From Sweltsa coloradensis (lineage: Eukaryota > Arthropoda > Insecta > Plecoptera > Chloroperlidae): 64,000 bases of DNA. The stretch spans positions 868,001 through 932,000 of the forward strand of contig JAMZAV010000054.1 of assembly GCA_024449915.1 (NCBI GenBank), written 5' to 3'. Both the position numbers and the translations under genes were made by a program. Positions 7,928-60,740 of this stretch are shown in pieces. The notes below the pieces were generated by a model. It did not search any database and was not told the origin of the DNA. It was given only the letters and a program-made list of their open reading frames with translations. Each line of letters begins with the position of its first letter. The first letter of the stretch is position 1.

Positions 7928-8186
7928 TAAATTTAAATTTTTATCGTGGGAAACCTGTCATAGGGTGCAATTAGCCCCTCTTCAGGTGAACTAGGTATGT
8001 GCGGATAGGAAATTGTGAAGGGATGTCCGAGGGCTGTTTAAGAGGACTCAATCCCTTGCATTCGCCTTAACGACTGAGGAAAACCTCGGATAAAACCTTC
8101 AGTCAGGATTGCGGTCTCGACGGGATTCGAACCCGGGACCTCCAGAATCAGAGTCGAGCGCTTAGCGCCCGAACCACCACTGTCGG
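7928..8186 (-). mobile_element. tRNA-derived SINE, family 1 (well preserved)
   Basis: On the minus strand it begins with a tRNA-like head: GCGCTAAGCGCTCGACTCTG-type region, then GGTTCGAATCCCG (B box). The family body follows and it ends in a TTTATCGTGGGAAACC-type tail region read in reverse. The 11-bp target duplication TGATGTTAATA is at 7917-7927 and 8187-8197. It would be mobilised in trans by a LINE; it encodes no protein. Confidence 0.85.
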
Positions 8187-8654
8187 TGATGTTAATAAAG
8201 ATCAATATACGTTTTATATATTGTGTTATTTTAATCTCTTGTTGGTTGGAAACATCTTCAACTGATTTAATTTTTATAAGGTGGTAGGCATGAGTCTTTC
8301 TGGTGAAATAAAGATGGCTGTATTTGTTTAAATTTTAATTTGTATTTTCTTACTCTTATGTCAAATGTCATGAAACCCGTGGAAGAGAACTGATTAGTTG
8401 TCTAAATATTGCTCACATAGTTTTCTTTATTTAAAGAGTCAAGTGTACAGTCCACATAACTAGATATGTTATAAACTAATGTATTACAAGGTGTGTTTAA
8501 TATATCTTTTTAGAAAGAAAGATGTGTCTATTGATAATCAGGTATACTAGTGGTTTCCAACCAAAGCTTGCCTAAAAATAATGGAGCAGTGTTGTATTAG
8601 TGTTGGTACTATAGATTTCCATTTTATAGAAATCAATCCAGAAATTACAAAATC

Positions 8655-8712: not shown

Positions 8713-10457
8713 TTAACTTCATAACATCTGGATTGTTGGTATTTTTATTCAAAATATATTTGTAGTTTGAATTAATGCGTTCTATGTAAATGACAATTTA
8801 TAATATCTTTGACCCTCACATTATTGCCACAAGACAATGATTAACATAAGGGTATTTGAAAATAGGCTTTTTCAACCTTTTAAACAATGAAAATATGATT
8901 AAAACTGAAAATAAATGACACAATAATTTTACAAATTACCAAGATAATAACAAAGCAGCTATTATAATTTTTTTTCTTGAAGGTATTCATGTTTTTAATT
9001 CTTTCAGTTCTTCTGGGAGTTAATTATATCATTTTGAGTTAATGTATAATCAATTGAGTTGCATACATTAAGGTTTAGGATATTGAGAGTAAATATTTTG
9101 AATCTGTCTAGTATTATGACTGTGAATGTTGTGATTTGATGTTAAGTTGCTTTAATTTTTATGAATGTATAAAACAGTTTGCATGATATAAAGCGGTTAT
9201 GATGTGAGGATATCATGATTTTTAAATTGTTGTTTCCAATGTGGTTTGATAAAAGAATCATTTCTCTATCTTAACCCCAGAACAATTTTGAAGTGTTTCG
9301 TTTTGTAAAGTGAAAATGTTTTTAGCATAAGTGGTACAACCCTTAAATTCAACCCCATATCTCATATGATATTCAAAATTGGAAGAATATACTACCTTGG
9401 CTGTTTTAACTTTTGAAATAGATTTTTGTATTATTCTTAAAGCAAATATGGTTGAACTAATTGTTTAGAAAGCTTTTCACGTTGTTTATGCCAATAAAGA
9501 TTTTCATCAATTATTAAAGCAAATAGCAATAAACCCTTACGAAGACACATTTTTTGTATTACTGTGCCAGTTTCATTGTCAATATTGTAACGCAATTTTT
9601 TTCATCTTGACGTTTCGATATTTTCTTACATCCTACACAAAACATTGTTAGTCAAAAGAAGGTTTTAAATGCGATGTGACATTATAATTTCTTTGCAATA
9701 TTTTATAATGATCTGTTTTTCTATCTGAGCTTTGTACCTAGTAAAAATCTGTATTATTCTTGGTACGATTGATGCTAGTGGAACTTGCAGTACGTTAGCA
9801 ACTGAGTACCAAGGAATTGAGAAAGAGAGCGGAAGGGGGGGGGGGAAGAACCGTCTCATTTTTTACCATTTGTTACTCCCTTATTTTCCCAATAGAATCT
9901 GAAATCAATAGACCTTGTTAGTGAGGATTCTCAATTTGCCATTTTTCACATTTCCAAATGACAGTCTAAGCTCTGATTAATTTAAATGTCGACGCCACAA
10001 CACTGTTTTGTGCTCATTGCATTTTAGTATCAACTTCACCAAGATAGGTTAATATATTTGAAGTGCCACGTAACAAAAATACAAGTTGTATTAAACATGT
10101 ATACAAGTTGTATTTTTGGAGTTGAAAAGTCCCACCTTATGTGTACAACGCAGTACAATTTTAATAAATGTTAGCGACACATCCCTTCACATCAACGGCA
10201 AACCGGTTGGGAATTGTTATATTTATGTATAATTTGTTTATACGGCATACATTCATTAAAGTAAGAAACATACTGATGGATGCAAATAGCGGACCTATGA
10301 AATGTTTTGGGCATTTGCACCCATCATAAGAACAATATGAAATACAACAATAATAAAAAGAAGAAACAGACAATATAAAATGTGTAACACACATATCAAA
10401 AACTAAAAAACATACTCGTATAGCTGCTCTCTCGAACCTATCGAGAGACAGTTCCTA
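8713..10457. other. Non-genic AT-rich DNA
   Basis: No coding exon or recognisable mobile element. It includes a G9 run near 9836-9844. Confidence 0.45.
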
Positions 10458-10684
10458 AGTGCTGACTCCCTGTTATGTTATACACGGATTTCTGTTTCAG
10501 AGTGCTAACTCCCTGTTATGTTACACACGGATTTCTGTTCCAGAGTGCTGACTCCCTGTTATGTTACACACGGATTTCTGTTCCAGAGTGCTGACTCCCT
10601 GTTATGTTATACACGGATTTCTGTTCCAGAGTGCTGACTCCCTGTTATGTGACTCACGGATTTCTGTTCCAGAGTGCTGACTCC
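10458..10684. repeat. 43-bp minisatellite, 5.3 copies
   Basis: Five full units start at 10458, 10501, 10544, 10587 and 10630, plus a 12-bp partial unit at 10673. Each begins AGTGCTGACTCCCTGTTATG and ends TTTCTGTTCCAG. Units differ by only one to four bases, so the array is young. No coding frame runs through it. Confidence 0.95.
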
Positions 10685-19871: not shown

Positions 19872-20286
19872 GATCAAGATGGCCGAACAGTAGTCAGCAG
19901 CAAGTGGGTCGGAGCTCATACATACTTCTCTTACAGTGGTATTTTCTTACATTTATTGCACCAAACTTAAATCATCACACCCCACTAGTATTCTCACAAC
20001 AAAACCGTAAGTCTCTTAAGTAATATACAATAATATTAGACTACAAAATCAGAAACTAAAAACGTCTATTAGCTCACAATAGCATACCTCTCTCCGAACC
20101 ATCTGTAAAACATCTCTTACCGACTGAGCCCTCTACAAACCATCTCTTTACCGACTGAGCCATCACACTAACACCAACACCCCCATACTAGCCGCATTCG
20201 TAAGACGCTTTCATAGCTTTCCGCTAGAGGCCGGAAGCTGCACCACTGGTACGTGCCTCTGGTCATCAACCCCATCACCCGAGACT

Positions 20287-21126
20287 ATGTCGTCGCGATC
20301 CACGAGACACTCGACAGCTGTCCCAAAGCAGTTAGCTGCCCCCGCTGTGAACAAGGTCACGAAGCAGCGAGAGATGCCAATTACCCCCCGAAGACAAGAG
20401 CCCAACACCTCACTAGACAGCGTAGGAGCGCAAATTACAAACGTTCAGAGTAATATGAACGAACGTATGACTGCGTTCGAAGAGAAACTTGCCACTATTC
20501 AAGCTTCGCGTGCCACAACTCCAGACGCCACAAACGATGAAGACCTTACTCGACTAACCTCCTCCTTCAGCGAATTCAAGAAACAATGCTTGGAAGAGTT
20601 AGCTCTCATTCAAACAGTGGTGAGTGAACTGAAGGAGAAGATAAAAAATTGTGATGACCGCACGGAACAACTCGAACAATACAGCCGTCGTAATTGTCTT
20701 CTTCTGCACGGCGTTGAAGAGAAACAGGGAGAAAACACGCTTGCTGTTGCTCTTGACATTGTCAACAACATGATGGGTATTCAGCTAGCACACCATTGTT
20801 TAGACCGCGTACACCGGATCGGTGCACCAAACAAGTCCGAGAACGGGACAGCACGTAGAAACAGGCCCATCATCATCAAATTTATCTCGTACCAGGCGCG
20901 AGATGCTGTATGGCGCGCCAAGGTAAAGCTACAGGGCAGTCGTATCGTGCTCACTGAGTCGCTCACCAGGGAGCGACAAGACATCTTCCGGGAAGCACGA
21001 ACCAAGTTTGGCATGAAGCGTTGCTGGACGGCTGACGGCAACATAATATTTCTGGACTCGAACGGACGGAGAAATTACGTTAGAAAAATGGCAGATAGAG
21101 ACATCATACTAACTCTACAACCGTGA
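20287..21126 (+). CDS. LINE B ORF1 protein (coiled coil plus RRM-like)
   Basis: An intact 279-residue frame from ATG. Residues ~1-45 are basic and Ser/Thr/Pro-rich. Residues ~45-135 are heptad-rich (coiled coil, probably for trimerisation as in L1 ORF1p) and end in EQLEQYSRRNCLLLHGV. Residues ~135-230 resemble the L1-type RRM, with DRVHRIG and RPIIIKFISYQARDAVW. The C-terminal part has TESLTRERQDIFREARTKFG, as in the L1 C-terminal domain. ORF1p coats LINE RNA and acts as a nucleic-acid chaperone in the ribonucleoprotein. There are no stops, and an ORF2 follows after 269 bases. Alternative frames here are shadows. Confidence 0.85.
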   Translation: MSSRSTRHSTAVPKQLAAPAVNKVTKQREMPITPRRQEPNTSLDSVGAQITNVQSNMNERMTAFEEKLATIQASRATTPDATNDEDLTRLTSSFSEFKKQCLEELALIQTVVSELKEKIKNCDDRTEQLEQYSRRNCLLLHGVEEKQGENTLAVALDIVNNMMGIQLAHHCLDRVHRIGAPNKSENGTARRNRPIIIKFISYQARDAVWRAKVKLQGSRIVLTESLTRERQDIFREARTKFGMKRCWTADGNIIFLDSNGRRNYVRKMADRDIILTLQP

Positions 21127-21395
21127 GCGGTAAACGAAACCCTAAATCTCCGAGAAAGAGTTTGTACAAACAGACTTTACTATCTCGAAACAAAAACAAA
21201 AAATCCTAAAACTCCGACCCCACAAATCAAGGCCTATTGCCTATTGCCTAAAGTCTTCATTTATTAGAATAAGATTAAAATTATATCAAATTAGATCTTT
21301 TTTGTTGCAATACATACGCAGAAGCGTTAATTTGTTAATAGATTTAGAACATATAGCCTTATATAGCCTTATATAGCCTTATTATATCTAGCTAG
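21127..21395 (+). other. LINE B inter-ORF spacer with three 10-bp repeats
   Basis: Non-coding, AT-rich. It contains three perfect ATATAGCCTT copies at 21351-21380, directly upstream of the ORF2 ATG, and GCCTATT repeats near 21231-21250. It may bear on ORF2 translation, but that is only a guess. Confidence 0.6.
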
Positions 21396-24300
21396 ATGAA
21401 CCAAAATGTACTGATAGAGGATAACGAGGAAAATCACGAAATTGACTTAAAGTATAATGCATACGACCCACCAATCACAGGCAATTTGACAAATAATATT
21501 GCATGTAATAATACCTTAGATTTAGATCAACTGTTTAAGAGCAACCTTGACCCCAAAATTATACACATTAACATAAGAGGGATAAACAAAAACTTTGACC
21601 AGTTGTTGGTGCTACTGCAGAATACCAAAACAACTTTTGACATAATAATATTAATGAAACTAATACAGATAAATACACAATAAATGGTTATGAAACAATC
21701 CACCAACCACACAAACTTTCTACATATGACGGCATCACCGTACTCATTAAAATAGACACATTCAAATCATATCATGCAAATCACATTGATGGAATAACAT
21801 CTTCGAACAACCTCCTACTGCAACTTGTAACACCATCATCTAAAACATATTCAATATTAGCAGTCTACAGATCCCCTTCAGGGAATGCAAAACTATTCGT
21901 TGAAGAAATCGGAAACGAAGCCAGCAGCCTAAGAAGTAATTATAATGTTGTTATGGGAGATACGAACATTAATATTGACGGAGAATTAATTAAAACCCCA
22001 ATAGCGACTGATTATCTCAATGTTATGTTAGCACTCGGATATCTCCCAGGCATAACGAAACCAACCAGAATTACCCCAAAAACAAGTTCATGTATAGACC
22101 ACATATTTATAAAATCACGTGATGAAAATCATATAACTGCTATCTTAGAGACATTTATCACGGATCATTACCCTATTATACTTGGCTGGAACACTACACA
22201 TGACGAACTAGACGCAATTCGGCAAGCCAAACGGAAAACTCAATCCATTAAAAAAACTCTAGATCATGATAAATTGATCGATTCATTAATAGCAGAGGAT
22301 TGGAAATCAGTAACTGACCAGACAGACGTTGATACGGCCACGGACAATTTTATTAACACTCTCACAAAGTATATCAAGTTAGCCACAAATGACAAAATTA
22401 TCTCGAATGTGAACTATAAGCTAAAACCTTGGATCACAGCCGGACTTGTGAAATCTATTAGGACCAGAGACAAACTCAGTAAACTATCCCTCAAGTTTCC
22501 GGAAAACGAAGAGCTACGTAATAACTACAAACAGTATAGAAATCAATTAAACTCTCTCTTAAAACGCACTAAAAACGATTATTATAAGCAGCAAATTGAA
22601 GAAGCATCTAATGTTAGAAAAGTATGGAAGGTTATAAACGAGGCCACGAATAAGTCCCAAACAAGCCTCCAAATCAAACAGATTGCAACAGATAGTGGCA
22701 TGATAACTAGTAAAGAGAATCCTAAAAATGTAGCGGATGTATTTGTTGACTTCTTCTCTGACATTGGCAAAAATATGGCTAGTAAAATAACACCTCCCAC
22801 CTCTGGCCACCTCCATTCAGATTATATAAACATAAATAAAGATAAAACGGTACACAAATCAATCTACATGACACCTGTTGATGACGCTGAACTAGGGAAT
22901 TGTATTGATGCCTTAAAAAATAACTCAGCGCCTGGATAGATGGGATAAAATGTCCAACAATCAAGCTAATCAAACCATATATAATAGCACCTCTTAAATA
23001 TATCATCAATACAAGTTTTTCTGAAGGAGTATTCCCTAAATCATTTAAAAATTCCGTTATAATACCAATTTATAAGAAAGGAGATAGAACAGCAGTTACA
23101 AATTACAGACCTATTTCTCTTATCAGTAACCTATCGAAGATTTTAGAAAAATGCATACAATCTAGAATGTATTCATTCTTTGAGAAACATAAAGTTATTT
23201 CACCTAACCAGTTTGGCTTCCAGAATAATCTTAGCACACAAGACGCTATCACCAAACTTACTAATGAGGTGGCAAACGCAATGGATAAAAACAAAAAGTC
23301 TTTAGTTGTATTTCTAGATCTTGCAAAGGCGTTTGATACAGTTTCTCACTCACTTCTGATCACTAAACTGGAGCAATACGGAATAAGAGGCACCCCCCTA
23401 GAACTTATAAAAAGCTACTTAGCAAACAGAAAACAATTTGTACGAATTGAAGGGAACCTCAGTAAAGAGAGAAAAATTGAATATGGTGTCCCACAAGGTA
23501 CGACACTGGGGCCATTGTTATTCTTAGTATATATTAATAGCCTTTGTAACATGAACCTCAAAGCAATAATAGTTAGTTTTGCTGACGATACAGTAATCAT
23601 ATTTCAGGAGGACTCATGGACTGAAGTACATAACGTAGCAGAACTAGAAATGAGACGCGTAAAAACCAATCTTGAAACCAATTTACTTACTCTTAATTTA
23701 GAAAAAACAACTTACATGACCTTCTCACCCAACGTCACTGACCAACCACAACACTTTAATCTGAAAATTCACCAGTCCACCTGTTCAACACAACAAAGTG
23801 CGTGTAGGTGCCACGTACTAAACAAGCGCGAAGACAATATGTATCTCGGCGTACTTATTGACCAACATCTTAGATGGAACAGGCACATTAATTACATCAC
23901 TAAACGGTTGCGAAACTCCATATATAAATACTATACACTGAGGAACATTCTGACGCCATCCACACTGAGATCAGTCTACTTTGCACTTACCCAATCAATT
24001 ATACAGTATGGAATAATAGGCTGGGGAGGAGCTAGCATCACCCACATGGAACCTCTCAATGTGGTTCAAAAATGTATCCTTAAAGTAATGTTAAATAAAC
24101 ACTTCCTATACCCGTCTAACCTCATTTTTACCGATTCCAACATACTAACGATAAGAAAATTGTACATAAAAAACTCCCTTATTCACATCCATAAAAACTA
24201 TAAATCATATAATTCGGTAATTCACAGAGTTACGACTAGAGATAAAGTGAATAATAAACTACAAGTACCAAGAGTAAATAAAGGGATCACCCAAAAGCAT

Positions 24301-24468
24301 TTCATGTACTTGGGGCCCAAAATATTTAACCTTTTACCAGCAGAACTGAGAGATAATGTAAGCAAAACAAAATTTTCCCGACAAGTAACACTTTGGCTAA
24401 AAGAACGCTCGAACACGAATATTGAAGATATAATAAATTTAAGACCCTCTAGACACACCCTCTGTTAG
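21396..24468 (+). pseudogene. LINE B ORF2 (APE endonuclease plus reverse transcriptase), two 1-base frameshifts
   Basis: The endonuclease part has HINIRG (21564-21581), AVYRSPSG, GDTNI (21956 on; Thr replaces the usual Phe of GDFN), SCIDHIF and TDH (22160-22168). The reverse transcriptase has NYRPISL, FLDLAKAFD (23311-23337), GVPQGTTLGPLLF and the catalytic FADD (23578-23589). One base appears deleted near 21652 and one near 22936 (APG then a stop instead of APGIDGIK). Apart from these the product would be about 1,020 residues, normal for the family. The protein nicks DNA and copies LINE RNA at the nick. The defects could be real or sequencing errors. Confidence 0.88.
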
Positions 24469-32392: not shown

Positions 32393-32403
32393 ATGGAAGA
32401 GGT

Positions 32404-32667
32404 ACCGACAATGTTGGCTCGGGCGCTAAGCGCTCGACTCTGATTCGTGAGGTCACGGGTTCGAAACCCGACGAGTCCGGCAATCCTAACTGAAAGTTTT
32501 TCCGAGGTTATCCTCAGTCGTTAATGCGAATGCAAGGGATTGAGTCCTCTTAAATAGCTCTCGGACATCCCTTCACAATTTCCTATCCGCACATACCTAG
32601 TTCACCTGAAGAGGGGCTAATTACACCCTATAACAGGTTTCCCACGATAAAACATATTTTTTTAAAA
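32404..32667 (+). mobile_element. tRNA-derived SINE, family 1 (best-dated copy)
   Basis: Head with GGCTCGGGCGCTAAGCGC (A-box region) and GGTTCGAAACCCG (B box), then GGCAATCCTAACTGAAAG, CTCAGTCGTTAATGCGAATG, TCGGACATCCCTTCACAAT, and a tail CACGATAAAACATATTTTTT. It is flanked by the 11-bp duplication ATGGAAGAGGT at 32393-32403 and 32668-32678, which proves retrotransposition. Confidence 0.9.
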
Positions 32668-35484: not shown

Positions 35485-35716
35485 ACATATGTGGCTCTAA
35501 CATAAAGCGCGAGACACTGTTTGCGATTCAGCATCCTGCCACCTGCAATTCGGATACCGAAAGTTTTCTTCGAAGTATTCTTCAGTCGTTAATGCGATTG
35601 CAAGGATTTGAATCCTCTTAAACAGCCCTCGGAAAATCCCTTGACAATTATACAACTCCAAAGAGACATCAAAAGAGGGACATCCAATTACAACTGGACA
35701 GATTTTCCACAATAAT
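35485..35716 (+). mobile_element. tRNA-derived SINE, family 1 (degenerate)
   Basis: Retains CAGTCGTTAATGCGATTGC, TCCTCTTAAACAGCCCTCGG and the TTTTCCACAATAA end. The tRNA head is mostly lost. Confidence 0.65.
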
Positions 35717-39504: not shown

Positions 39505-39716
39505 TCAGGTGAACTTAGTATGTTGCGGATAGGACAATTGTGAAGGGATGTTCGAGGGCTATTTATAACCGGACACAACCACTTGCATTCGCATTAATGA
39601 CTGAGGAAAACCACGGAGAAACTTTCAGTCAGGTTTGCCGGTAACGACGAGATTTGATACCTGGCCCTCCCGAATCAGAGTCAAGCGCTAAGCGCTCGAG
39701 CCAACACAGTCGGTAT
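39505..39716 (-). mobile_element. tRNA-derived SINE, family 1 (3' truncated)
   Basis: The minus strand shows GCGCTTAGCGCTTGACTCTG, a degraded B box, GGCAAACCTGACTGAAAG and the ACATCCCTTCACAATTGTCC region. The last part of the family consensus is missing. Confidence 0.75.
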
Positions 39717-40566: not shown

Positions 40567-41295
40567 ATGCGGTGGCCCATGGGCCTCGCAGTGGTTTTGA
40601 TGACGAGTATGTGCGCGCCCACGTCCTACAAACACAACCCCGAAATCGCCAGATCCTGTTGGAACGACGAGGACTGCAAACTATACCCGTTTTGTATCAA
40701 GAGGCCTCTGGGGTGCCGCTGTCTACACAATGGTATCTGCCTCATGGCAAGGGGCCACCATCAACACTGTGAGGCAGACAGTCACTGCACCTGGGGTATG
40801 ATCTGTTCCGAGGAGGAGCTATGTGTATGTGTGATTGGTTCACGTTATTCTAGATTTAAAGATAATTGCATCATAGTGCCAAACCGAGACGAGCTTCCTC
40901 GTTTCGCCGACCTCCCCGATGGGGAGGACGAGCTTCCTCGTTTCGCCGACCTTCCCGATGGGGACGACCCCGACGCTCCCCCTCAGATCCCGGCGACCTA
41001 CGGCGGCCCCCTGCTGGTCGGCATCATCAGCATGAGCTTGGTGGTGCTCTGCTTGGGGGCAGCTCTGTGGTGTCGGTGCACTTCTCCACGGAGCCCTGCC
41101 GGACTGTCGCCGCCATCCTACCCCACCGAGAGAGAGGGCGAGAAGATACCACTCGACCTCCTCTACCTACCGCCGCCGGAGAAGTTCCAGACGCCGGGCT
41201 ATTACAATAACTATCGGAGTGTTGGGGAGAGATCACTTCCCAGCACCTCGAGAGATTCCCCAGCCGGAATAGGTCACCAAGACCTCTCAAGTTAA
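40567..41295 (+). CDS. Type I membrane protein, two six-Cys modules, PPxY tail
   Basis: A complete 242-residue frame in a GC-rich island. Residues 1-20 form a signal peptide. The ectodomain has exactly 12 cysteines in two modules: C31, 37, 43, 50, 52, 58, and C68, 74, 80, 86, 88, 101, with nearly identical spacing (5,5,6,1,5 and 5,5,5,1,12). This looks like an internal duplication, loosely like insect EB modules. An acidic 13-residue unit, DELPRFADLPDGE, is repeated in tandem at 108-133. The transmembrane helix is about 147-169, followed by a CRC motif and a proline-rich tail with PPSY at 182-185, a WW-domain ligand as used by Nedd4-type E3 ligases. The architecture recalls Shisa/WBP1-type adaptors, but I do not recognise the orthologue. 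It is probably a cell-surface or endosomal adaptor. Confidence 0.85.
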   Translation: MRWPMGLAVVLMTSMCAPTSYKHNPEIARSCWNDEDCKLYPFCIKRPLGCRCLHNGICLMARGHHQHCEADSHCTWGMICSEEELCVCVIGSRYSRFKDNCIIVPNRDELPRFADLPDGEDELPRFADLPDGDDPDAPPQIPATYGGPLLVGIISMSLVVLCLGAALWCRCTSPRSPAGLSPPSYPTEREGEKIPLDLLYLPPPEKFQTPGYYNNYRSVGERSLPSTSRDSPAGIGHQDLSS

Positions 41296-53059: not shown

Positions 53060-54215
53060 GATATAGTGAAAGCTGTAAGCGGAAAAATATTGCAAATCCG
53101 GATACCAGCGTAAAATTTTGCATGTGGGTAGATAAAAATATCAGAATTAAAAATCCGCCGGGAGGCAAGCGATATCTCACCCCCAATACCCCCTAAATCA
53201 TCCCCTGAAATTAGAATAATTCATAGCTCGAAACCAAAAAAGAATTTTTATTCAAATTAGTTATTAAAATTATGTTTTAATGTGTTTTAACCCAATCGGC
53301 CTATTCTCATTTCCTAAACCACATTTTTTCAACCCCCATCCCTAATAGTTTATATTATTTTTACCTTGATTTCCAGCATTCACCAGTGAGGCACCCAGTG
53401 AGTTATCAGCATGAAATTTGGCATGATGGTACATAATAACCTGAAAAATAATAATCCGCCGGGAGGCAAGCTATATTTAATCCCTATTGTTCTCTACCAC
53501 CCTTAACTTTGGGGAAAACGTAAGGTAGTATTTAATACATTTTGAATATTTCAATTGCTGATTAAAATTATGTGTCGATGTGTTATAGTCCAGTCAACAA
53601 ATCATTCACACAAAACAGACAATTTTTTCACCCCTAACCCTAATAATTATACATTTAGTGACAAACACTGTTTAGTAAGTTACCAGCATGAAATTTGGCA
53701 TGGTGTTAGATAAAAATATAAGAATTGATATTCCGTTGGGAAGCAAACGATATTTCACCTCTAGTGCCCTCTATAATCCTTTAAAATTGGAATTGGCACT
53801 AGGTCGTATTCTATAGATTGTAATTATTAAAATTATCCAAAAATATTATGCTCAAGCATGTTTCGATCCAATCAACCTAATTTCTCACTTTTTTTTTACC
53901 CCCACCCCTAATAGTGATTTTTTTATCAACCCTTACCAGCATGAAATTTGGAATGGTGGTGGATAAAAATATAAGAATTACTATTCCGTTGAGAGGCAAA
54001 CGAAATTTCACCCCTAGTGCCCTCTATCGTCCCTTAAAATTGGAACTGGTACTAGGTCATATTCTAAACATTGTAATTATTAAAACTATCCAATAATATT
54101 ATGCTCAAGCATGTTTCGATCTAATCAACCTAATTTCTCATGTTTTTTCTACCCCCACCCCTAATAGCGATTTTTTTTATCTACACTTATTAGCATGAAA
54201 TTTGGCATGGTGGTA
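53060..54215. repeat. Left arm of the 2.4-kb palindrome
   Basis: Four degenerate head-to-tail units start near 53104, 53405, 53682 and 53935, plus a partial one at 54189. Each begins CCAGCATGAAATTTGGCATG or a variant. They continue with GATAAAAATATAAGAATT, a CCG-GGGAGGCAA block, CCCCTAGTGCCCTCT and a pyrimidine-rich CCCCCACCCCTAATAG end. Unit length falls from about 300 to 254. Confidence 0.9.
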
Positions 54216-54270
54216 TCGTATGGTAATATCGTTTGCCTTTCAACGGAATAGTAATTCTTATATTTTTATC

Positions 54271-55430
54271 TACCACCATGCCAAATTTCATGCTGGCAAG
54301 GGTTGATAAAAAAAACCACTTTTAGGGGTAGGGGTAGAAAAAACATGAGAAATTAGATTGATTGGATCGAAACATGCTTGAGCATAATATTATTGGATAA
54401 TTTTAATAATTACAATGTATAGAATACGACCTAGTACCAATTCCAATTTCAAGGGATGATAGAGGGCACTAGAGGTGAAATATCGTTTGCCTCTCAACGA
54501 AATAGAAATTCTTATATTTTTATCTACCGCCATGCCAAATTTCATGCTGGTAAGAGTTGATTAAAAAAATCCCTATTAGGGGTGGGGGTAGAAAAAACAT
54601 GAGAAATTAGTTTGATTGGATCGAAACATGCTTGAGCATAATATTTTTGGATAATTTCAATAATTACAATCTATAGAATATGACCTAGTACCAATTCCAA
54701 TTTTAAGGGATGATAGAGGGCACTAAGGGTGAAATATCGTTTGCCTCCCAACAAAGTATTAATTCTTATATTATTATCTACCACCATGCCAAATTTCATG
54801 TTGGTGACTTACTAAACAGTGTTTGTCACTAAAAGTATAATTATTAGGGTTGGGGGTGAAAAAATTGATTGTTTGGTATGAATGATTTGTTGACTGGACT
54901 ATAACACATCGACACATAATTTTAATCAGCAATTGAAATATTCAAAATGTATTAAATACTACCTTACGATTTCCCCAAAGTTAAGAGTGGTAGAGAACAA
55001 TAGGGGTAAAATATAGCCTGCCTCCCGGCGGATTATTATTTTTCAGGTCATTATGTTCCATCATGCCAAATTTCATGCTGATAACTCACTAGGTGCCTCA
55101 CTGGTGAATGCTGGAAATCAAGGTAAAAATAATAAACTTTTAGGGATGGGGGTTGAAAAAATGTGGTTTAGGAAATGAGAATAGGCCGATTGGGTTAAAA
55201 CACAATAAAACATAATTTTAATAACTTATTCGAATAAAAATTATTTTTTGGGTTAGAGCTATGAATTATTCTAATTTTAGGGGATGATTTAGGGGGTTGG
55301 GGTGAGATATCGCTTGCCTCCCGGCGGATGTTTTGTCCTGATATTTTTATCTACACCCATGTAAAATTTCGCGCTGGTATCCGGATTTGCAATATTCTAG
55401 TATTTTTTTGTCCCTTTACAGCTCTCACTA
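54271..55430. repeat. Right arm of the 2.4-kb palindrome
   Basis: Reverse complement of the left arm in the same unit order (heads at about 54294, 54550, 54805, 55081 and 55380 on the minus strand). The innermost paired segment starts with TACCACCATGCCAAATTTCA at 54271, leaving a ~55-base loop (54216-54270). Outer ends pair at CTGTAAG/ACAGCT-type sequences. Confidence 0.9.
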
Positions 55431-55674
55431 ATAGTCTTTAAAGCCACTGCCCCTTTTCCTATTTTTACGGGGAACTTCTAAAATATAAGAAGTATCCAAT
55501 AATATTCTTCTTGTTTTATACAGATTGGATAGAGATAAATCTACTGGTATTTTGTAGAAACAGGGATAATTTTATATTAGAACATTTAATTTTTTGTTTC
55601 TATGGTGAAAAAAGTGATAAAGCGACGAGCGTATTAGTGATTAGCAAGTGATTTTAACTCTGGAATCTGGAATC

Positions 55675-55700
55675 ACACACACACACACACATGCATGCAT
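55675..55700. repeat. (AC)n and ATGC microsatellite
   Basis: ACACACACACACAC followed by ATGCATGCAT. Confidence 0.9.
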
Positions 55701-55893
55701 CGACACATGCATTTAATATCCCAGGTTATAAAAAATGCTTAAAATGTTTATTTGATAAAATAAGAAATTGTGCTACATTTCTAGTAGGTAGGAGTAAATA
55801 ATATTGAATGAACGTGCGTTACTCAACCGAGTTCGAGGGTATAATTACATCGGTCTCTCATTGAGTTTCCAACAGTGGTTTCCCTTCACTTAC

Positions 55894-56050
55894 CCGGGTG
55901 TCGGCAGTTCCACAGAGGACTGACGGTGAGTCCGGATGGTGTAGGGTCCGGTGGGGAAGAGTTGCGGAGCACCAGCCTTCCCGGGGGAGAGCATGCCTAC
56001 CCCTCTCCCGCCGCCCTCGTCGCCACCCACACCGGCTTCGAAGGCCACAC
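55894..56050 (-). CDS. Internal (or first) coding exon of the minus-strand gene
   Basis: A 157-base exon on the minus strand, bounded by CAATTAG acceptor and a consensus donor CCCGG|GTAAGTGA. It is open in one frame across its whole length: VAFEAGVGGDEGGGRGVGML, then a basic, proline-containing part ending GPYTIRTHRQSSVELPTP. Nearly all codons end in G or C in an AT-rich background. It ends with two bases of a codon that the exon at 41933-42080 completes. Upstream, an in-frame ATG at 56064-56066 precedes a continuous frame, so it could instead be a first coding exon. The Gly-rich sequence looks disordered or intracellular. Family unknown. The plus-strand frame is Arg/Pro-rich and looks like a shadow. 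Confidence 0.6.
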
Positions 56051-57271
56051 CTAATTGAGTTGACATGGGAAATGTTTCAGTTAATTGTGATCGAGTGCGT
56101 ATTTAGAAGATCGGTATAAGGTAGGTAGGTAAGTCTGCTTTTGCTAAAAGAATTTACATCAAAATGTAAGGAGAGATTTACACAATATACAAAAAGTGTT
56201 ATAATTAAATCTCATAAAGCAATCCTCATCTAGCTATATTGAGCAATGTTATACTTGTTCGTAAAAGAAATATAGGTTATTAATCTGAAAGCTTTTTCGA
56301 AGCCTTGATAAGCAATGTAATAATTAGTTCTTCAGGCGTTTATTTCGGGATTTTTGATACTTGTTTCGATAAAGAAGATATTAGGCCTCCTCTATCTAAT
56401 CTGAAACTATTTTCAAAACCATTTATATAACAACTGTAATAATTAGTTTATCATTTTGTAATGTATTTTTTGTTTATTTTCTTAAGCTGGATCCGTGACA
56501 AAGGTTGGTTTAGAGCCAACAAATTAATTATCTATATTTTGTACCGTATTTACAACAATGCAAGCAATTCTTTGGAGTAGAAGTTTGAACAATAGATTCT
56601 TATAGAGAATCAATATAAATAAAAAGTGAGTTTCATCAAAAAGCACATTCATGACTTTATATCGTTGAGGATAAAAACAAATTAACACAAATAATGTTTT
56701 CTAGAAGAAAGATTTTTTAGCAAATGATTTGTCAAAGTAAACAAAACAGACAAAACGAATTAAATCTTTATTATGCGTAAACTAAAATGTATGCAAGAGA
56801 TTAAAATAATTGCACACGTATTTCCCCCCCCCCCCCCCCTGGATAATGAAAAGCCAACATTCATAATATTTTAACACTTTATCATCGAGTGAATTGAACA
56901 TATTGGTAATGCACAGTATTTTAACCATTGTCGTATATAGGCCTACTTGACTTGATAGAAATAAAATAAAATAGGCCACATTCCGTATTCCGTTTTTGAA
57001 ATTATAGTTCCACGTTTTTTCGATAGAATAGCATCGTTCACAACTTCGATGTAACAGTTCAATGAAATAAGTGCATTAACTATTTCTTCAAAAAAACCAT
57101 TCCCAATAACAGGAGACTCAATTATAATTAAGTAACTTGAATGTAGCTGAAAGCCATACAGGATTTGGAAATGCTGATCTTTGTCCATAAGCCTGATGGT
57201 TTTTTAGTCTTGTTCAAGAAATTCTAATACGTGACTAAATGCATCACTTTTATCTACGTCTGATTATCGGT
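56051..57271. other. Non-genic AT-rich DNA
   Basis: No further exon of the minus-strand gene could be recognised. Includes a C15 tract at 56825-56839. Confidence 0.45.
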
Positions 57272-57382
57272 GTACCTGTGCATGTGTCACGTCTCACGAT
57301 TAAAGCACAACATGACATTCAATTGACAAGAGCTTTTTTTGTAGAATTCGACCTTTTTTACATTAACCCGGCACCTCCACCA
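57272..57382 (-). repeat. GGTGGAGGTGCCGG-headed repeat, copy 5
   Basis: Short copy: minus-strand head TGGTGGAGGTGCCGGG (57367-57382) and the tail ATCGTGAGACGTGACAC (about 57285-57301) only ~70 bases apart. Confidence 0.75.
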
Positions 57383-60250: not shown

Positions 60251-60487
60251 ATGAATTAATACTTAACCACAAATCACGAGTTTTAAGTAATTTCTCGCCT
60301 TAACGGATTGTCAAGGAGTTCTTACTTTCCGAAAGACAAAAGTTTTGACAAACGTTCAACTCCATTGATTAAGAACACTATCATCGAAAGGCATTCGATT
60401 CAGAAACTAAACCTCTAGCGTGCTAGTAAACTACAGTAGCCCCTATACGTATTATATTTAAAACTTCTATATTGATAAGAGGACCAT

Positions 60488-60740
60488 TAGTGTTGGCATG
60501 AGCGCTAAGCGTGCTACTCTGATTCGGGAGGTCCCGGATTTAAATCCCGTCGACACCGGCAATCCTGACTGAATGTTTTTATCGAGGCTTTCCTCGGTCG
60601 TTAATGCGAATGCAAGGGAGTGAGTCCTCTTAAACATCCCTCGGACATCCCTTCACAATTGTCCTACCTCCAATATATCTAGTTAGACACCTAAAGAGGG
60701 GCATGCATTGCACCCTGGACAGGATTCTTGCGATAAATTT
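60488..60740 (+). mobile_element. tRNA-derived SINE, family 1
   Basis: TGTTGGCATGAGCGCTAAGC, GGATTTAAATCCCGTCG (B box altered), GGCAATCCTGACTGAATG, TCGGACATCCCTTCACAATT and a CTTGCGATAAATTTTT end. No clear flanking duplication. Confidence 0.8.

Follow-up and report, generated by a model that had tools for sequence, protein, structure and literature searches.

A long palindrome in the stonefly Sweltsa coloradensis is very probably an old insertion of a non-autonomous foldback DNA transposon present in many copies

The window analysed here is a stretch of 64,000 nucleotides from the Sweltsa coloradensis assembly GCA_024449915.1 (contig JAMZAV010000054.1, positions 868,001 to 932,000 of the forward strand); positions below are those of the window unless a copy is named. 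It contains a palindrome of 2367 bp, far beyond what would be expected by chance (Table 1). The two arms (53064–54215, 1152 bp, and 54271–55430, 1160 bp) are inverted repeats that make up most of the element's length, separated by a loop of 55 bases (54216–54270). With the loop excluded, the arms are identical at 1065 of 1147 aligned bases (92.9%) and differ at 82 positions, and their alignment contains four short gaps, two in one arm (12 and 1) and two in the other (3 and 2). Each arm is itself built from tandem units, whose order is mirrored between the arms. Those of the left arm measure 301, 277, 253 and 253 bp and are followed by 29 bp of a partial fifth; those of the right arm measure 296, 277, 254 and 254 bp, with 75 bp of a partial fifth. 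An earlier, sequence-only reading of this DNA had described two inverted arms of ~1.15 kb around a spacer of ~55 bases, each with four units of ~250–300 bp, and these measurements bear it out, adding part of a fifth unit.

Table 1 Features of the window copy and its surroundings, in window coordinates
Feature	Position	Strand	Basis
Foldback transposon copy, whole (TAGTGA...TCACTA)	53064..55430	.	Ends set against 28 other two-ended copies
Target-site duplication ATA, left	53061..53063	+	Flank comparison
Target-site duplication ATA, right	55431..55433	+	Flank comparison
Left end domain, L form	53064..53101	+	Resembles L ends of 14 other copies
Unit L1	53102..53402	+	
Unit L2	53403..53679	+	
Unit L3, 253-bp array unit	53680..53932	+	
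Unit L4, 253-bp array unit	53933..54185	+	
Partial unit L5, broken at the inferred deletion	54187..54215	+	
Nine unexplained bases where the middle is missing, read as filler	54216..54224	+	Inferred against L051
Partial unit R5	54225..54299	-	
Unit R4	54300..54553	-	
Unit R3	54554..54807	-	
Unit R2	54808..55084	-	
Unit R1	55085..55380	-	
Right end domain, R form, with ~12 bp extra stretch	55381..55430	-	
Putative exon: splice signals, open frames, without homology	55894..56050	-	Exon of the sequence-only reading

The same reading had placed the duplication of the units before the inversion of the arms. This is firm for the two outer units: L1 and R1 are 93.6% identical and L2 and R2 95.3%, but units 1 and 2 share just 60–69% identity with every other unit, which implies that they had diverged before the inversion took place. 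It does not extend to units 3 and 4, which are 90–92% alike both within and between the arms and whose cross-arm pairing has weak tree support (0.72 and 0.82). The longest identical run between the arms, 90 bases, was matched in 385 of 5000 shuffles, so that gene conversion in the window copy is not remarkable.

The remainder of the window holds several further features. Non-LTR retrotransposon-like frames at 20128–24468 include a reverse transcriptase (PF00078, E 6.8e-37), together with an endonuclease match that falls below threshold; their nearest proteins are about 50% identical. At 40567–41292 lies a frame for a cysteine-rich protein with a likely membrane-spanning stretch, a 39-bp repeat and a Dickkopf_N match below cut-off; its best match (44% over 84%) is a protein of Blattella germanica, with Hemiptera supplying the other named matches. 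A dispersed repeat family, perhaps a short interspersed element, is present at five sites (7939–8194, 32403–32652, 35556–35633, 39566–39715 and 60476–60660) and has inverted pairs of 76–156 bp at 77–96%. Finally, 10451–10684 holds 5.4 copies of a 43-bp tandem repeat (94% matches).

Using the left 641 bp of the palindrome as a query, we searched the 1.45-Gb assembly and scored 40 of 2492 first-look candidates. This returned 40 full-length matches, comprising the window and 39 others, among which those on contig C2407 represent both arms of one copy; the remaining 37 of the 77 matches were short secondary ones on contigs already counted. The best 40 of the 2492 candidates therefore correspond to the window copy and 38 others, the latter at 94–96% to the query, and from this left-arm search alone the family has at least 39 copies. 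All 38 were retrieved for analysis. They are the copies most similar to the left arm of the window, and since the list is ranked by that likeness the sample and the divergence figures drawn from it are biased. Within the stretches read, both ends were present in 29 of the 39 copies (window included) and one end only in 10.

In all 29 two-ended copies the end, unit 1 and unit 2 are mirrored on both sides. The common plan runs from the end through unit 1, unit 2 and a variable array of 253-bp units to a middle of ~430 bp, and is then repeated as its mirror image. The number of full 253-bp units per arm ranges from 0 to 6 among the 29 copies; in the right arms of L054 and L062 the array is reduced to one broken unit, and the arrays of some copies are interrupted by insertions. 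Some or all of the middle domain, which measures ~430 bp in full copies and is largely palindromic, is present in 27 of the 29, and it is absent from the window copy and from L079. In 15 pieces of middle or inserted sequence, taken from 14 copies, the longest open frame was 50–102 amino acids in each. Extra insertions were seen in several copies, for example L063, L067, L069 and L089.

The elements have short ends of the form TAGTGARAGCTGT, which were laid out for 15 copies, the window among them. When ends are classed by their best match, one L-form and one R-form end are seen in 28 of the 29, so that the copies descend from one asymmetric palindrome and not from separate inversions. Furthermore, 24 of the 29 are flanked by an exact 3-bp target-site duplication (TSD), which is ATA in the window copy and varied across the family (ATA, TAA, TAT, GCA, GTG, TGT and others); flank matches at other lengths were found at 2 bp in two copies and at 4 bp in one. 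The five copies without an exact 3-bp TSD are L058 and L062 (one mismatch each), L084, L087 and L066. The flanks of L084 share a 6-bp match, the longest of the 29, and those of L087 a 4-bp match. L066 (48–5000) has two L-type ends, reverse-complementary flanks and six full 253-bp units per arm, and may be an assembly fold-back.

To look for empty sites, the two flanks of every two-ended copy except L066 (28 in all) were joined and aligned to the retrieved G000 loci and to the window. This revealed 11 junction-spanning matches from five copies, two of which matched their own locus only, and the junction alignments were inspected for six of the 11. Related empty sites in which the 3 bp are present once were identified for L052 (96.5% and 91.5%) and L067 (90.3% and 89.1%), both of them copies other than that in the window. 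The empty site for L065 was weak (68%), and one further L052 match was uninformative.

Taken together, the mirrored copies elsewhere, the 3-bp TSDs and the related empty sites lead us to conclude, with a probability of about 0.96, that the palindrome is an old member of a non-autonomous, high-copy family of foldback DNA transposons. It combines long inverted repeats, internal tandem repeats of variable number, and dispersed copies with TSDs and empty sites, as foldback elements do. The counterpoint is that no transposase is tied to the ends and that five of the 29 copies are without an exact 3-bp TSD. The sequence-only reading had named a fold-back transposon as an alternative to its own headline, had proposed a genome-wide search with one unit for other palindromic copies, and had listed, as evidence against a hairpin-RNA locus, many identical palindromes at random sites together with a lack of small RNAs and of a transcript. 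On the first of these points, the search with the left 641 bp found 38 other copies, 28 of them two-ended with the mirrored plan, and so similar palindromes do occur elsewhere and the alternative has become the preferred explanation.

For units 1 and 2, compared between arms and placed in a tree for 14 copies (L066 left out for its mirrored flanks), the mean identity within a copy is 97.0%, and the window copy, at 94.4%, is the second lowest. Its two arms lie on terminal branches of 0.030 and 0.046 without any supported grouping, so that most of the arm difference could postdate insertion, and the copy is an old one; the K2P distance between the whole arms is 0.076. The window copy has the same unit number as L051. 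Measured against L051, its fifth unit is broken near base 30 on the left and near base 75 on the right, with nine unexplained bases between, and on the simplest reading of this junction the middle would have been lost by internal deletion with filler.

On the foldback reading, a transposase supplied by another element would cut at the short ends, and the whole palindrome would be inserted with a 3-bp stagger. Array length would then shift from copy to copy through unequal exchange or slippage. The window copy would have had its middle deleted internally, leaving the 9-bp filler, and would afterwards have decayed with no selection to keep the arms paired. A transcript running through the element would fold as a long hairpin, as a by-product.

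Both strands are indeed predicted to fold as one hairpin, with energies of −1733.7 kcal/mol (plus) and −1765.1 kcal/mol (minus), as compared with −475 to −766 kcal/mol for 13 control stretches of equal length from the window, one of which (55001–57376) overlaps the right end of the element. In addition, 15 perfectly matched runs of at least 21 bases span 544 of the 1147 aligned positions. The putative minus-strand exon nearby is 157 bp long and 68% GC, with a canonical AG and GTAAGT and two open frames; the palindrome lies 464 bp from its 5' splice site, making an intronic location for the element plausible. The sequence-only reading was right that the distance is ~460 bp and that a transcript would form a long imperfect duplex, which the minus-strand fold predicts as a single hairpin. 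As for the exon, the splice signals and open frames hold up, and Pfam support was lacking in the two frames scanned.

Two readings give this hairpin a role. One, which operates within the foldback family, is that the intronic hairpin of this copy feeds piRNA or siRNA silencing of the family itself. The predicted fold, the many homologous copies available as targets and the putative intron location all speak for it, and siRNAs could arise here as from any inverted-repeat transposon inside a transcript; against it, the gene model is putative, and we consider such silencing rather unlikely.

The other reading, the headline of the earlier work, is a functional intronic hairpin-RNA (hpRNA) locus, in which Dicer-2 would process a minus-strand intron transcript into target-silencing endo-siRNAs. 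The near-perfect long fold predicted for both strands, the 15 perfect runs and the plausible exon upstream in the minus-strand sense would all fit, and the long hairpin geometry predicted here would suit Dicer-2 as in Drosophila hpRNA loci. However, an element with at least 38 other copies belongs to a dispersed repeat family and so is not a dedicated locus. Nor are the arm mismatches biased by strand towards G-U: those that would form G-U pairs number 22 in the plus transcript (G/T) and 29 in the minus (A/C; p = 0.40), and neither count hints at selection for pairing. Moreover, ten arm frames had no Pfam match at cut-off, the protein search with one arm frame gave one candidate and none passing, and the palindrome had no match elsewhere in the 64-kb window at E 0.01. 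Drosophila hpRNA loci are transcribed and have siRNA evidence and gene targets for most, and most new D. simulans hpRNAs have compelling antisense targets (PMC10317233), whereas the window element is a dispersed transposon, described here through its DNA only. We therefore regard a functional hpRNA locus as very improbable, and the headline as unsupported.

A number of weaker matches were set aside. Nlp36 in an arm frame scored 12.3 bits against a cut-off of 27.3 and was read as chance. An Rfam search of the window returned nothing at gathering level; MIR7533, MIR6217, MIR8565 and other miRNA models matched the centre of the palindrome below their gathering score and were read as generic long-hairpin matches. 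The unit motif was matched once in each of 41 bacterial and archaeal stretches, also read as chance; two scans of viral contigs and a phage search gave no match.

Two further explanations concern the origin of the palindrome rather than its product. The first, that a tandem array was duplicated in inverted form where it stands, was likewise raised earlier as a recent event. It would account for the mirrored arms and units, but it fails to explain the same mirrored element at 28 other two-ended loci, 27 with both distinct end forms, or the TSDs and related empty sites, and these refute it. An assembly or sequencing fold-back artefact, of a type familiar for long palindromes and resembled by L066 with its reverse-complementary flanks and two L ends, can be dismissed with near certainty for the window, where the arms are mismatched at 82 of the 1147 aligned positions, the end forms differ and the flanks are not mirrored.

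Turning to the transposase, a second foldback-like element of 6787 bp (1184–7970 of L089) sits in a unit of a window-family copy. Its ends, TAGTAGAGCTGTT, are similar to those of the window family, its TSD is TAT, and its arms consist of 312-bp tandem repeats. The right end scored 20 points as against a best of 12 in 20,000 shuffles, and the left end 7 points, a score equalled in 13 of 20,000. Within this element lies a DDE_3 transposase, one of whose two frames is above the Pfam cut-off. As an autonomous partner it was rejected: the 3.46-kb stretch with the transposase recurs in L093 (99.6% over 3467 bases), where those ends are missing, indicating a separate nested insertion with other termini. 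Among the relatives listed (124 matches, with 122 of 278 candidates scored), four stretches, L090, L091, L092 and L093, were examined and lack the end motif. No transposase tied to the family's ends was found in the copies studied or in these four relatives.

The two families, one with 253-bp units in the window and the other a 6.8-kb element with 312-bp units in L089, have similar ends (TAGTGAGAGCTGTTAGC and TAGTAGAGCTGTTAAGC) and both make 3-bp TSDs, while their satellite-like arms differ. It is conceivable, though we advance this only tentatively, that they represent a foldback lineage from a superfamily not known for making such elements, in which the arms are swappable cargo. The joint reading, equally tentative, would have fixed, transposase-recognised ends with the arms growing inside them. 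Candidate superfamilies with TSDs of 3 bp are PIF/Harbinger, CACTA/CMC and Academ. Such TSDs have been reported for Zator (PMC10045372), a further candidate.

The FB (Foldback) element of Drosophila melanogaster has inverted repeats that are internally repetitive. In its foldback architecture and repetitive inverted repeats the window family resembles both FB and the Mutator-type foldbacks, which are named in PMC4079207. TSDs of 4–10 bp are given for MuDR and IS256 (PMC10045372). The family departs from the Mutator-type TSD of about 8–10 bp, with 3 bp in 24 of the 29 copies and a longest flank match of 6 bp. P-type elements make TSDs of 7–8 bp, and in this too the family, at 3 bp, differs from the P superfamily and hence from Galileo. 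In the literature surveyed, mostly abstracts, we noticed no foldback element with a 3-bp TSD, and one could be in print. A 3-bp TSD that is neither of Mutator nor of P type is in line with the view in print that different transposon lineages have acquired the foldback form independently.

Galileo, an element of Drosophila, has TIRs of more than 1 kb, with inner tandem repeats that hold extra transposase-binding sites; its putative transposase, which binds the TIRs through a THAP domain, places it in the P superfamily (PMC3688188). The window family shares with it the long TIRs with internal tandem repeats and, by analogy, its repeats may bind a transposase as those of Galileo do. In Tetris, from Drosophila virilis, the TIRs reach 1735 bp and combine an outer flanking domain with AT-rich tandem repeats of ~220 bp, variable in number; its middle is described as non-coding, a transposase as absent and some copies as rearranged (PMC4079207). 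By description, not by sequence, the window family is like Tetris in its outer domain, its tandem repeats within the inverted repeats, its non-coding middle and its want of a transposase. It is unlike Tetris in its TSD of 3 bp, as compared with 8–10 bp (PMC4079207), in tandem units that start ~38 bp inside the end, in a pair of outer units divergent from the array and in a middle domain that is largely palindromic. A candidate hairpin-RNA gene is thus replaced by a documented transposon family, and a high-copy foldback family is now described in another insect, adding to a form of element that has been linked in flies to chromosome inversions (Galileo) and to satellite DNA (Tetris; PMC4079207).
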